Assembly (NCBI GenBank): GCA_019233695.1
Contig: JAFAME010000226.1
Location: 1 to 39,687 of the forward strand
Direction of reading: 5' to 3'
DNA: 39,687 nt
Origin: Methylobacteriaceae bacterium
GTDB taxonomy: Bacteria; Pseudomonadota; Alphaproteobacteria; Rhizobiales; Beijerinckiaceae
Of the stretch, positions 25,561-30,194 are shown piece after piece. Each line of letters starts with the position of its first letter. Positions within the stretch are counted from its first letter, which is position 1. The position numbers were made by a program, and so were the translations under genes. A model generated the notes under the pieces. The model saw only the letters and a program-made list of their open reading frames with translations. It had not been told where the DNA came from and made no database searches.

Positions 25561-28173
25561 CTAGTCCTCGTCCGGATCGAAGGCGCCACGGTCGACGCCG
25601 CCGCCGACCAGGATCTCGCGCTTGCCGGCGTGATTGGCGGGGCCGACCACGCCCTCCTTCTCCATCCGCTCGACGAGCGAGGCCGCCTTGTTGTAGCCGA
25701 CCGACAGGCGGCGCTGGATGTAGCTTGTCGAGCATTTCTTGTCGCGCAGCACGATCGCCACCGCGCGTTCATAGAGATCGGCCGATTCCTCGGCATCCAT
25801 GGTGCCGAAGGCCGGCTCGCCACCGTCCTCGGTCGCGGCCGCCCCGCCATCGTCGTCGAGGATCACGTCGAGGTATTCGGGCTGCCCTTGCGTCTTCAGA
25901 TAGGCGACAACCTTCTCGACCTCCACGTCGGAGACGAACGGGCCGTGGACGCGCGAGATGCGCCCGCCGCCGGCCATGTAGAGCATGTCGCCCTGGCCGA
26001 GCAGCTGCTCGCCGCCCTGCTCGCCGAGAATGGTGCGGCTGTCGATCTTGGAGGTCACCTGGAACGAGATGCGGGTCGGGAAATTGGCTTTGATCGTGCC
26101 GGTGATGACGTCGACGGAGGGGCGCTGCGTTGCCATGATCAGATGGATGCCGGCGGCGCGCGCCATTTGCGCCAGGCGCTGGATCGCCCCCTCGATGTCC
26201 TTGCCTGCAACCATCATCAGGTCGGCCATCTCGTCGACCACCACGACAAGGTAGGGCAGGACCGCAAGATCCATTTCCTCCTGCTCGTAGATCGCCTCGC
26301 CGGTCTGCCTGTCGAACCCTGTCTGCACCGTGCGCGTGATCGTCTCGCCCTTGGCGGCGGCCTCGGCGACGCGGGCGTTGAAGCCGTCGATGTTGCGGAC
26401 GTTTAACTTCGACATCTTCTTGTAGCGGTCTTCCATCTCCCGGACCGCCCACTTCAGCGCCGTGACGGCCTTCTTGGGGTCGGTCACCACCGGCGTCAGG
26501 AGATGCGGGATGCCGTCGTAGACCGACAGTTCGAGCATCTTCGGATCGACCATGATCAGCCGACATTCCTCCGGCCGCAGCCGATACAGGATCGACAGGA
26601 TCATGGTGTTGATGGCGACCGACTTGCCCGATCCGGTCGTGCCCGCGACGAGGAGATGGGGCATGCGCGCGAGGTCGACGACGACGGGCTCGCCGCCGAT
26701 CGTCTTACCGAGCGCGATGGCGATCTTGTGCTTGGCCTTCTCGAAGTCCTCGGAGGCGACGATTTCGCGCAGATAAACGGTTTCGCGGCGCTGGTTCGGC
26801 AACTCGATGCCGATGGCATTGCGGCCCTGTACGACGGCGACGCGGGCCGAGACGGCCGACATCGAACGGGCGATGTCGTCGGCAAGCCCGATGACCCGCG
26901 ACGATTTGATTCCGGGGGCTGGCTCGAGTTCGTAGAGCGTCACCACCGGGCCGGGGCGCACATTGATGATCTCGCCCTTGATACCGAAATCCTCGAGCAC
27001 GCCTTCGAGGAGGCGCGCATTCTGCTCGAGCGCATCCTCGGAAATCTGTCCTGCCCAATGCCGCTTCGGCTCGGTCAGGATGGCAAGCGGCGGCAGCTGG
27101 TATTCTTCGCGATCGAGCAGCGACGGCTGCGCCTCGCGGGCGATCCGCTTGCCAAGCTTGGGCGGCGGCGCAGCAGCCGATACCCGCGGGAAGGCCTGGC
27201 CTTCGACGAGGCGGGCATCGGGTCCCCCCGCCGAGTTTGCGCCTGGCCGGGCGGCAGCCCCGCTGCCTTTGCCGAACACGGGCTCCTGCCGCTGCGACCT
27301 TGCTCGGCCCAAGCTGAAGTCCATCCCGTCGTCGTCGCTGTCGAAGGCCGTGTTCGCCGCGCGGGGAGCAAGCCATGGCGCCCGGGGAGGCGGGGCGGCC
27401 TGCGCCGCCGACCGCTTCCTGCGGGCCGCCCAGCGCCGCGCGATCGCTCCCTTGAGACTCAATCCGGCGTGAATCAGCGCGCCGATCGACACAAGCCCCA
27501 GTCCCGGCTCCCCGGCCGCATCGTCCTCGTCGGCCTCGCGCGGCGGCAGCGACCGGGCGACGCGCGGCTCGAAGGCGGGGAAATCTTCTTCCCCGTCGAG
27601 GCTCCCCGCCTCGTGCAGCCCAAAGCCCGCAGCGGCGGTCAGGGAGAGGATCGCGGTGCCGGCAAAAAAAACCGCGGTCAGTACCATGCCGGCGACGGTG
27701 CCGCCGAGCAGACGGCGCGGCAGCGCCAAGATCGCGTCTCCGGCAACCCCGCCAAGACCGGTCGGAAGCGGCCAGCGGTCCGTCACGGGAAGCAGAGAAG
27801 CGAGCGCTGCCGTTGCCGCCGCACCGACAAGCCAAAGCGCGACGCGCAGCTTGGGTTGGTTCAGGCGTCGCCGCGACAGCAGGCGCCATCCCCAAAAGGC
27901 CGGCGGAGTGAGCGCGGCGACGGAAGCCATGCCGATCATCTGCATCACCAGGTCGGCAACGATGGCACCTGGAAAGCCCAGGATGTTGCGAACCGGCCCG
28001 TCGGTTGCGTGATTGATGCTGGGGTCGCGGACCGACCAGGTGGCAAGAGCGAAGGCCATGGCGGCTGCGCCACCGAGCAGCGCCGCGCCGATAAGCTCGG
28101 CCGCACGTCGACGAAAGAATTCCCGCAGGGCTTCCGGGACGAACTCCCTGCCCGAGAATGTGGTGGTTCGCAT
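25561..28173 (-). CDS. ftsK: DNA translocase FtsK
   Basis: This 870-residue septal DNA pump clears and aligns chromosome ends at division. An N-terminal membrane domain (about residues 25-190, four or so hydrophobic segments) leads into an Ala/Pro/acidic linker of about 150 residues. The RecA-like motor follows, with Walker A GTTGSGKS (512-519), Walker B region [12 protein letters not shown] and [13 protein letters not shown]. The C-terminal gamma winged helix (about 800-865; [25 protein letters not shown]) reads polarity sequences. I chose ATG 28173; a GTG one codon upstream is also possible, with GGAAGG close by. Upstream is a CtrA-type box. The usual rhizobial neighbour amtB is absent. Confidence 0.95.
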
Positions 28174-28267
28174 CACCCTTCCGCCGCCTAGCGCAGAACC
28201 GATGGGCGGGGCGAATTCTGCCGGCGCGCCGCACGCGTTCCTGTCCGAACAGGCTATGGTGCCAGAG

Positions 28268-28282
28268 TTAATGCCGGTTTAA
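28268..28282. promoter_or_regulatory. CtrA-type box upstream of ftsK
   Basis: TTAA (28268-28271), a 7-nt spacer and TTAA (28279-28282) match the full CtrA consensus TTAA-N7-TTAA. It lies about 95 bp upstream of the ftsK start in GC-rich DNA. Direct control of ftsK by the cell-cycle regulator CtrA is inferred. Confidence 0.6.
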
Positions 28283-28309
28283 CCCTGCGGCGGCAGGATG
28301 GTCCTTCGG

Positions 28310-28420
28310 TTGAAAGAAAAGAGGCGGCCTCCGTGAGGATAGCCGCCAGTTTCGGGAGGAAGACCTCCGGTCCAAAGTTACCGGAGCCGGGGAAAGGAGC
28401 AAGCTTCCACAACGCTCCTT
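28310..28420 (-). ncRNA. Candidate structured RNA or attenuator ending in an intrinsic terminator
   Basis: Reading the minus strand, there are four hairpins in a row: AAGGAGC/GCTCCTT (28420-28394), CTCCGGT/ACCGGAG (28386-28365), GGAGG-TCTT-CCTCC (28368-28355, overlapping the previous stem and so exclusive with it), and GGCGGC/GCCGCC (28347-28323). The last is followed by TCTTTTCTTTC, a terminator-like T-rich tract. A TAGAAT -10-like hexamer precedes the first hairpin, with a poor -35. The rest of the 28177-28710 gap shows no convincing gene. It could be a small RNA, the terminator of glnK, or a leader controlling ftsK; the sequence cannot separate these. Confidence 0.45.
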
Positions 28421-28710
28421 AATTCTAGTCTATGAGAAACTGTGAGTGTTCGGCCGGTGCACCAACCACGCTCTTGCATTCCGTCCTTTTTCAGATGTTC
28501 TCCGTCGCCGTTGCTCGACAACGCGCCTCGCCTCGCTGCGTCCCAGTCGAGAGCGCCAGCGGCCCCCAAGTTCGCATCCAGGTGGGACCTTCTGCCCTGG
28601 CGCGCCGTTACCAGCTGCGCCATCAGTCGCCTGTGATAATTCTCGGCGACTTTGCCCACCTACATAACGAAGACTTCGCACAACAGTTCCAATCTTGATC
28701 GTAACATCAC

Positions 28711-29073
<363 letters not shown>

Positions 29074-29134
29074 TCAAAACGCTCATCGGGCGCCCGACCC
29101 GGCCGGCACAGGCGCGGTCGGCTTGAATGAGCAA

Positions 29135-29150
29135 ACAAAGGCCGTGCCAA
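29135..29150 (-). promoter_or_regulatory. Sigma-54 (RpoN) promoter of glnK
   Basis: On the minus strand TTGGCACGGCCTTTGT matches the -24/-12 consensus TTGGCACG-N4-TTGC at all but the last base (GT for GC). It lies about 86 bp upstream of glnK, a usual distance. Confidence 0.6.
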
Positions 29151-29262
29151 CCGGACGCCCTGCCCTAGACCGAGGCGCGTCTGCCGCCCGAGGCCCGCAA
29201 TGCATGGATTTTGGCTGCCGAATGGCCGGGTCTCGGCGAGGCCGCCCAGAGATCGACCAGGA

Positions 29263-29292
29263 TGCCCACCGCATTTGCATAAATATTAGGCA
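29263..29292. promoter_or_regulatory. Overlapping NtrC-type dyads upstream of glnK
   Basis: Two TGC-N11-GCA dyads, at 29263-29279 and 29276-29292, share bases and lie about 115-155 bp upstream of the sigma-54 promoter. This is the spacing expected of an NtrC enhancer. The core match is minimal (TGC/GCA), so confidence rests on the position. The rest of the 269-bp glnK-tesB gap shows nothing else. Confidence 0.4.
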
Positions 29293-29318
29293 GCATCCGT
29301 GCACGGACGCAACCGCAG

Positions 29319-30194
29319 TCAGGCTCGGGGCAGCCGCTCCCGAATGAGGCCCTCCTGGGCAACCGAAGCCACGAGCCCGCCGTCGCGGGCGTAGATGAGG
29401 CCGCGCGCCAGCCCGCGCGCTCCATAGGTGTTGGGGCTGTCCTGCGCGTAGAGAAGCCACTCATCGGCGCGAAACGGGCGATGAAACCAGAGCGCGTGAT
29501 CGAGGCTTGCGACCTGCAGGCTGCGATCGAAGATCGAACGCCCGTGCGCGATGAGGGCGGTGTCGAGGAGCGTCATGTCGGAAAGGTAGGCAAGGAAGGC
29601 GCGATGGATCGCCGGGTCGTCCGGCAGCCTGCCGCTGGCGCGAACCCAGACCCGTTGCACCGGTTCGTGCGGCTTGTCGCCGGACGGCTGGTAGTAGCGT
29701 GAGAAGTCAACGGGGCGCAGCTCGATCGGACGTTCGCGCTCGAAATAGCGGCGCACGGGTTCCGGCATCAGCGCGGCATAGCGGCGCCGGAGCTCCTCCT
29801 CGCTCGGCAGGGATTCAGGATCAGGGACCGTTGGAACCGTGACGGCATGGTCGAGCCCGCTTTCCTCCACCTGAAACGAGGCGGAGAGCGAGAAAATCGC
29901 CTGCCCGTGCTGGATGGCGTTGCAGCGCCGGGTGGCGAAACTCTTGCCGTCGCGGATGCGATCGACCTCGTAGACGATCGGGATCGAAGGATCGCCGGGA
30001 AGCATGAAATAGGCGTGCAGCGAGTGCGGCGGGCGGCCCTCGACCGTGCGCGCAGCTGCGACAAGGGCTTGCGAAATCACCAGGCCGCCGAAGACGCGCT
30101 GCCAGCCGACCTGCGGGCTGCGGCCGCGAAAGATGTTGTGCTCGATCCTTTCGAGATCGAGGAGAGCAAGAAGATCGGTGACGGCTGCGGACAT
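29319..30194 (-). CDS. tesB: Acyl-CoA thioesterase II (TesB)
   Basis: This 291-residue double-hotdog thioesterase hydrolyses acyl-CoA to free fatty acid and CoA. Features are FRGRSPQVGWQRVFGGLVISQAL, SLHAYFMLPGDP, the second-domain active-site Asp in LSDMTLLDTAL, SLDHALWFHRPFRADEWLLY and the C-terminal Gln in ASVAQEGLIRE. The length matches E. coli TesB (about 286). It lies just upstream of glnK, as I recall for several rhizobia, though the NtrC and sigma-54 elements between them suggest separate control. The 223-bp gap to the divergent hydroxylase gene shows no clear promoter pair. Confidence 0.93.
   Translation of the reverse strand: MSAAVTDLLALLDLERIEHNIFRGRSPQVGWQRVFGGLVISQALVAAARTVEGRPPHSLHAYFMLPGDPSIPIVYEVDRIRDGKSFATRRCNAIQHGQAIFSLSASFQVEESGLDHAVTVPTVPDPESLPSEEELRRRYAALMPEPVRRYFERERPIELRPVDFSRYYQPSGDKPHEPVQRVWVRASGRLPDDPAIHRAFLAYLSDMTLLDTALIAHGRSIFDRSLQVASLDHALWFHRPFRADEWLLYAQDSPNTYGARGLARGLIYARDGGLVASVAQEGLIRERLPRA

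Follow-up and report, generated by a model that had tools for sequence, protein, structure and literature searches.

A putative suhB/AbcR-like anti-Shine-Dalgarno RNA element between glnK and ftsK in a Methylobacteriaceae bacterium

What is the role of a run of hairpins that lies between glnK and ftsK in the genome of a Methylobacteriaceae bacterium (GCA_019233695.1)? The window, i.e., the whole stretch of DNA analyzed here, covers 39,687 nucleotides (contig JAFAME010000226.1, positions 1–39,687), and the locus is read on its minus strand. The order on this strand is a sigma-54-type box, glnK, a 290-nt spacer, the hairpins (28420–28312), a CtrA-type box and ftsK. The glnK gene (28711–29049) encodes a PII protein of 112 aa (Pfam PF00543, 110 bits), while ftsK (25561–28176) matches PF01580, PF17854, PF09397 and PF13491. 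An earlier description made from the letters alone (the sequence-only reading) had placed a run of hairpins ending in a terminator between these two genes, and its position and coordinates were borne out by the sequence. The spacer (28421–28710) is probably non-coding, and no terminator was found in it; a search of it for an amtB remnant gave no amtB match. A 94-aa open reading frame (28430–28714) was rejected as a gene based on its GC3 of 0.48, compared to 0.78–0.84 in the adjoining genes, and the lack of a Pfam match.

Three hairpins and one anti-Shine-Dalgarno core could be identified in the element. SL1 (28394–28420, AAGGAGC...GCTCCTT) and SL2 (28365–28386, CTCCGGT...ACCGGAG) both have a predicted energy of −10.7 kcal/mol. 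They are followed by the core UUCCUCCC (28354–28361), by GAAACU (28353–28348) and by SL3 (28312–28347, GGCGGC...GCCGCC plus a U-rich tail), which is predicted to fold as an intrinsic terminator. The SL3 stem occupies 28347–28323 and the tail TCTTTTCTTTC 28322–28312; the tail 3' of SL3 can be written as UCUUUUCUUUC, and its T-run is interrupted. As only 2 terminator-like sites were found in 27600–29400 against 1.6 expected, the support for SL3 as a terminator comes from the comparison with relatives and not from the count of the scan. The succession of core UUCCUCCC, ACU and terminator is common to several elements found downstream of amtB and to the canonical suhB RNAs.

The promoters on both sides of the element were predicted by pattern matching. 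A sigma-54-type box, TTGGCACGGCCTTTGTT, is found ≈100 nt 5' of glnK (29130–29152), where a generic terminator scan had mislabelled it. Boxes of this type (TGGCAC-N5-TTG) precede the glnK of the window and 52 of 61 related copies, with 0 of 61 on the antisense strand, and control of glnK by NtrC and sigma-54 is therefore likely. The box lies before glnK, and immediately 5' of the element none was seen. The terminator scan found no terminator between glnK and SL3, and no sigma-70-like promoter was found in 27600–29400. A TAGAAT hexamer just before SL1 (28427–28422) was noted by eye as a weak candidate with no good −35. On the other side of the element, 3' of the terminator, ftsK is preceded by the only TTAA-N7-TTAA site in the window (28266–28284). 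The same pattern was found upstream of ftsK in 33 of 79 related loci, compared to 0–1 at spacings of 4–6 and 8–10, which suggests cell-cycle control of ftsK by a CtrA-type box. The earlier placement of the hairpins just upstream of the ftsK promoter region thus agrees with a promoter-like box downstream at 28268.

No Rfam family reached its cut-off in the window, and assignment to a tRNA or to any other family at gathering score was dropped. At relaxed thresholds RF00519 (suhB, MmgR/AbcR type) matched best, with 21.7 bits (E = 0.09 genome-wide). This match is on the correct strand and its end falls at the terminator, but it stays below the gathering score of 41 bits. As the element misses this cut-off, it is not assigned to RF00519. 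Three canonical suhB RNAs are present on other contigs of the same genome with RF00519 scores of 59.2–67.6 bits. Within the RF00519 core, UUUCCUCCCUAGACUU, the element keeps UUCCUCCC and differs in the flank (GAAACU). A similarity search at the DNA level found only the element itself among 60 genomes. Judged by its predicted structure and motifs, the element is a divergent suhB/AbcR-like, putatively anti-Shine-Dalgarno RNA element related to those downstream of amtB.

According to its FtsK the window belongs near the Beijerinckiaceae, and the closest of the 80 related loci kept is that of Methylocapsa sp. S129 (72% identical). The gene amtB is found upstream of ftsK in 59 of the 80 loci, 22 of which have it no more than 700 nt away, and a sequence search showed that it is absent from the window. 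The hairpins do in this sense sit where amtB would be, as had been proposed. In Methylocapsa sp. S129 an element lies between amtB and ftsK, with its first hairpin starting ≈14 nt past the amtB stop; it scores 35.0 bits with RF00519 (E = 4.6e-5 over that genome, 1.2e-5 in another run). The element in the window follows glnK by 290 nt, so it is not directly after amtB, and we infer that amtB has gone from this locus while the element stayed behind glnK. The sole amtB found in this genome is on another contig (C424, locus L127), beside a second glnK-like gene and with a tail that has no core. Its placement there suggests loss of amtB, or a rearrangement, at the locus in the window.

Related elements were searched with a covariance model, R1, built from 33 suhB-type RNAs including the Methylocapsa sp. 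S129 element. Run on 1.09 Mb comprising the window and the 80 loci, R1 gave 21 matches at E ≤ 10, with the window at 16.8 bits. Those with at least 16.5 bits were a canonical RNA (L046), the window and four matches just after amtB (L032, L054, L034, and L063), among which L032 was a training member. We then used 76 stretches downstream of amtB (amtB tails) from genomes of the same family, drawn from at least 150 amtB matches in at least 100 genomes; one partial gene, two copies already in the set and other families were left out. At E ≤ 2, R1 matched 17 of the 76 tails, and every one of these matches was on the strand of amtB.

The core motif itself is also enriched in these tails. TCCTCC is found within 60 nt of the amtB stop in 15 of the 75 readable tails, compared to 2.3 in shuffled sequences (SD 1.4, maximum 7 in 200); the opposite strand gave 1 and the reversed sequences 6. 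CCTCCC shows the same trend (13 tails; 3.5 shuffled, 3 on the opposite strand, 3 reversed), as does the weaker pattern CCTCC (19 tails; 10.7 shuffled, 7 on the opposite strand), for which the reversed control was not used because the pattern reads the same backwards. The other 60 of the 75 tails have no TCCTCC in these 60 nt, and the amtB of this genome is among those lacking the core. Just past the amtB stop of L033, L062, L183, and L205, a CUCCUCC-type sequence is located in a hairpin loop and not between hairpins; such a loop-borne sequence may be a second layout in some amtB tails, similar to the aSD1 reported for AbcR. A different RNA, BjrC68 (RF02353), was found directly after amtB in all four loci scanned, starting −2 to +34 nt from the amtB end: Rhodopseudomonas (L106, 3751–3832), Afipia (L105, 4474–4555), Xanthobacteraceae (L074, 4497–4580), and Pseudolabrys (L108, 3312–3396). 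The available part of the paper that names BjrC68 (PMC4842269) names no link to amtB or nitrogen.

For a second covariance model, R2, we used 15 amtB-downstream elements with the window excluded. Its members were picked by R1 score, which makes R2 lean towards suhB-like tails, and its alignment was obtained by fitting matches to R1, as MAFFT alignments of the amtB tails were poor; the core columns are gapped in a few rows. Although the window was absent from training, R2 recovered the element (28307–28393) with 30.8 bits (E = 5.6e-6), the next match in the window having 14.1 bits. The E-value was 1.5e-4 over 1.08 Mb (the window and 79 related ftsK loci) and 7.5e-4 over the 5.36-Mb genome, where the element ranked fourth of 12, below the three canonical suhB RNAs (43.9–49.8 bits) and above the next match at 23.3 bits. 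By R2 score the element thus falls within the amtB-downstream group, whereas by position it does not.

Among the other R2 matches in the 1.08 Mb, 35 of 57 are located −20 to +150 nt from the stop of an amtB gene on the same strand. This was the case for 6 of 7 matches with at least 30 bits, 9 of 11 at 25 bits and 19 of 23 at 20 bits; L054 and L034 in this group are training members, and many of the matches with low scores come from closely related loci of the Bradyrhizobium type, which have BjrC68 in this place. R2 gave no match at the amtB locus on contig C424 (L127). In 21 loci amtB is not found upstream of ftsK, and inspection by eye showed no R2 match close to the 5' side of ftsK in any of them. 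Among loci of this kind the window is exceptional in having retained the element, and glnK with it. A covariance check had been proposed for the hairpins, and here the pairs of the terminator stem were found to covary across the relatives. Pair counts on 24 aligned matches gave 93.8% paired, 13 of 13 pairs had double changes and the covariation score was 0.797 against 0.20 in shuffles, in an alignment (A6) that was fitted to its own model, which inflates the pair counts, and that is dominated by the terminator.

BjrC1505 (RF02356, 103.9 bits), another small RNA of this genome, sets a scale for these scores. It gets 22.4 bits from RF00519 and 27.2 bits from R2, and the margin to the element (30.8 bits) is not wide. 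Part of the signal is therefore common to any alphaproteobacterial RNA that combines CCUCCC with a terminator. BjrC1505 is found on contig C292 (L120, 1509–1647, minus strand) with a TTAA-N7-TTAA box just upstream, and DNA matches to it were seen in 31 of the 60 genomes searched, its own included. It is possibly a small RNA under cell-cycle control.

Several known small RNAs share features with the element, which is a variation on them. MmgR of Sinorhizobium meliloti (alpha-r8, RF00519) has the core UUUCCUCCC...ACU with a GC-rich terminator behind it, and its nitrogen-linked control resembles that expected for the element, where glnK upstream has a putative sigma-54 box. The conserved GCCC-UUCUU-GGGC hairpin of RF00519 is replaced in the element by the longer, unrelated SL2. 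In Ensifer sp. BR816 the single RF00519 match, which may be mmgR, is ≈0.42 Mb from the glnK-amtB-ftsK locus on the same contig. BjrC68 occupies the same place in the operon, directly after amtB, but has no CCUCCC core, a different conserved loop and no match in the window. GlnZ of E. coli is a small RNA derived from the 3' UTR of a nitrogen gene. Like the element, whose release is putative, it is a short RNA that ends a nitrogen-controlled message, though it differs in gene, sequence and lineage. AbcR1 and AbcR2 (alpha-r15) are 114–121 nt long, with three stem-loops and unpaired anti-Shine-Dalgarno motifs, according to the available parts of the sources (PMC8844928, PMC7143759). The element has SL1, SL2 and SL3 with one core, in which the CCUCC bases are each predicted to be only 31–50% unpaired. 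According to the same parts of the sources, a hairpin loop carries aSD1 of AbcR (CUCCUCCC) and the sequence of aSD2 reads UUCCCCUC, while UUCCUCCC of the element is just before the terminator. AbcR1 and AbcR2 form a tandem pair in another neighborhood, whereas the element is not part of a tandem pair. We found no paper joining small RNA, amtB, ftsK and intergenic region, and no evident report of a small RNA after amtB in Bradyrhizobium or of a nitrogen-related small RNA derived from the amtB UTR.

By analogy with these RNAs, among which AbcR represses mRNAs of ABC transporters in an Hfq-dependent manner, UUCCUCCC should pair with Shine-Dalgarno sequences. A 12-mer pattern matching the complement with at most one mismatch was found at 28 sites in the genome, one being the element itself. 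Of the remaining 27, five are at credible starts. Four of these belong to transporter genes (for an ABC membrane protein, an ABC ATPase, a DctQ and a periplasmic binding protein), and the fifth to the gene of a TPP enzyme resembling IolD. With a scrambled flank, 8 sites were obtained with one at a start, likewise of a solute-binding-like protein. As the control gave a similar type of gene, target prediction by the 12-mer is not specific, and complementarity at start sites is no evidence for specific targets.

Does the element then act on ftsK or on the transcript that it ends? It lies upstream of ftsK on the same strand, and its predicted fold includes alternative stems that could decide on read-through into ftsK, as in an attenuator or riboswitch-like leader. 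GGAGG (28355–28359, plus strand) and CCTCC (28328–28332, plus strand), pointed out earlier as able to pair, are present and complementary. A further stem, GGAGG-UCUU-CCUCC (28355–28368, −7.1 kcal/mol), would mask the core and shares GGAG (28368–28365) with SL2. The sequence-only reading was right that the two stems share bases but only partly right that they exclude each other, as in the best fold of 28420–28313 a shift in the register of SL2 lets it form alongside the alternative stem. This competing stem shows no conservation: of 16 core-bearing elements, 3 have a masking GGAGG or GGGAG 5' of the core, and upstream sequence that could mask it is no more frequent in them than in shuffles (mean longest run 4.19 versus 4.12). 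Moreover, the CtrA-type box lies 3' of SL3, and amtB-bearing relatives also have a terminator ahead of the same ftsK box. No riboswitch or leader was matched in Rfam, and the ftsK leader lacks the conserved, mutually exclusive stems of an attenuator. As ftsK has its own box, SL3 more likely ends the upstream transcript than gates ftsK, and we consider an attenuator highly improbable. Of the two functions proposed earlier, a regulated small RNA is the better one, given the relatives after amtB, the anti-Shine-Dalgarno core and the probably sigma-54-controlled glnK upstream.

A terminator is needed at this place, and a plain glnK terminator with an incidental UUCCUCCC and extra hairpins that merely stabilize the mRNA end would fit the lack of a core in most amtB tails and a whole-region fold (−46.2 kcal/mol, z = −1.81) that was equaled by 9 of 200 shuffles, a modest difference. 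We regard it as unlikely, as the core is enriched after amtB over shuffles and the strand control and as R2 ignores nearly all other terminators in the 1.08 Mb. A stand-alone small RNA of the suhB/AbcR/MmgR type would have a promoter to itself, would act in trans through the same core and would not be a 3' end of the glnK mRNA. It would account for the AbcR-like layout of three stems (PMC8844928 and PMC7143759, as far as available) and for an element that remains without amtB, 290 nt from glnK. The TAGAAT hexamer would offer a start, and MmgR is itself induced by NtrC according to the available part of PMC7143759. Against this stand the failure to find a sigma-70-like promoter in 27600–29400, the score below the RF00519 cut-off and the short gap in Methylocapsa sp. 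S129, which leaves little room for a promoter outside amtB, and such an RNA seems rather doubtful.

The reading we favor, at about even chances, is that a nitrogen-controlled glnK(-amtB) transcript has the element as its 3' end and that the element works as an AbcR-like anti-Shine-Dalgarno small RNA. Upon nitrogen limitation, NtrC and sigma-54 would switch on glnK from the conserved promoter box. The message would run through 28710–28420 and stop at SL3, as no terminator lies in between. Its last ≈110 nt (SL1-SL2-UUCCUCCC-SL3) may persist as a small RNA, either released by cleavage of the message or transcribed separately from a weak promoter, and the U-rich tail would be the likely Hfq site. 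Pairing of UUCCUCCC with Shine-Dalgarno sequences would then lower translation of nutrient-uptake and similar genes, as the resemblance to AbcR and MmgR suggests. Some relatives have an element of this kind at the close of glnK-amtB; here, with amtB lost from this place, it would have been left behind glnK.

More tentatively, and with less confidence than for the element itself, Beijerinckiaceae and their neighbors may possess undescribed anti-Shine-Dalgarno small RNAs from the 3' end of glnK-amtB under sigma-54/NtrC control, with BjrC68 in the same slot in Bradyrhizobium-type genomes and the RNA in the window outliving amtB. Nitrogen starvation would then be coupled to translational repression. 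The end of an ammonium-uptake operon would double as a source of regulatory RNA in a group to which methane oxidizers belong, giving a direct post-transcriptional link from PII/NtrC signaling to nutrient uptake. The slot after amtB would have been used repeatedly for small RNAs, suhB-like here and BjrC68 in Bradyrhizobium-type genomes, and this could hint at the origin of MmgR/AbcR-like RNAs.
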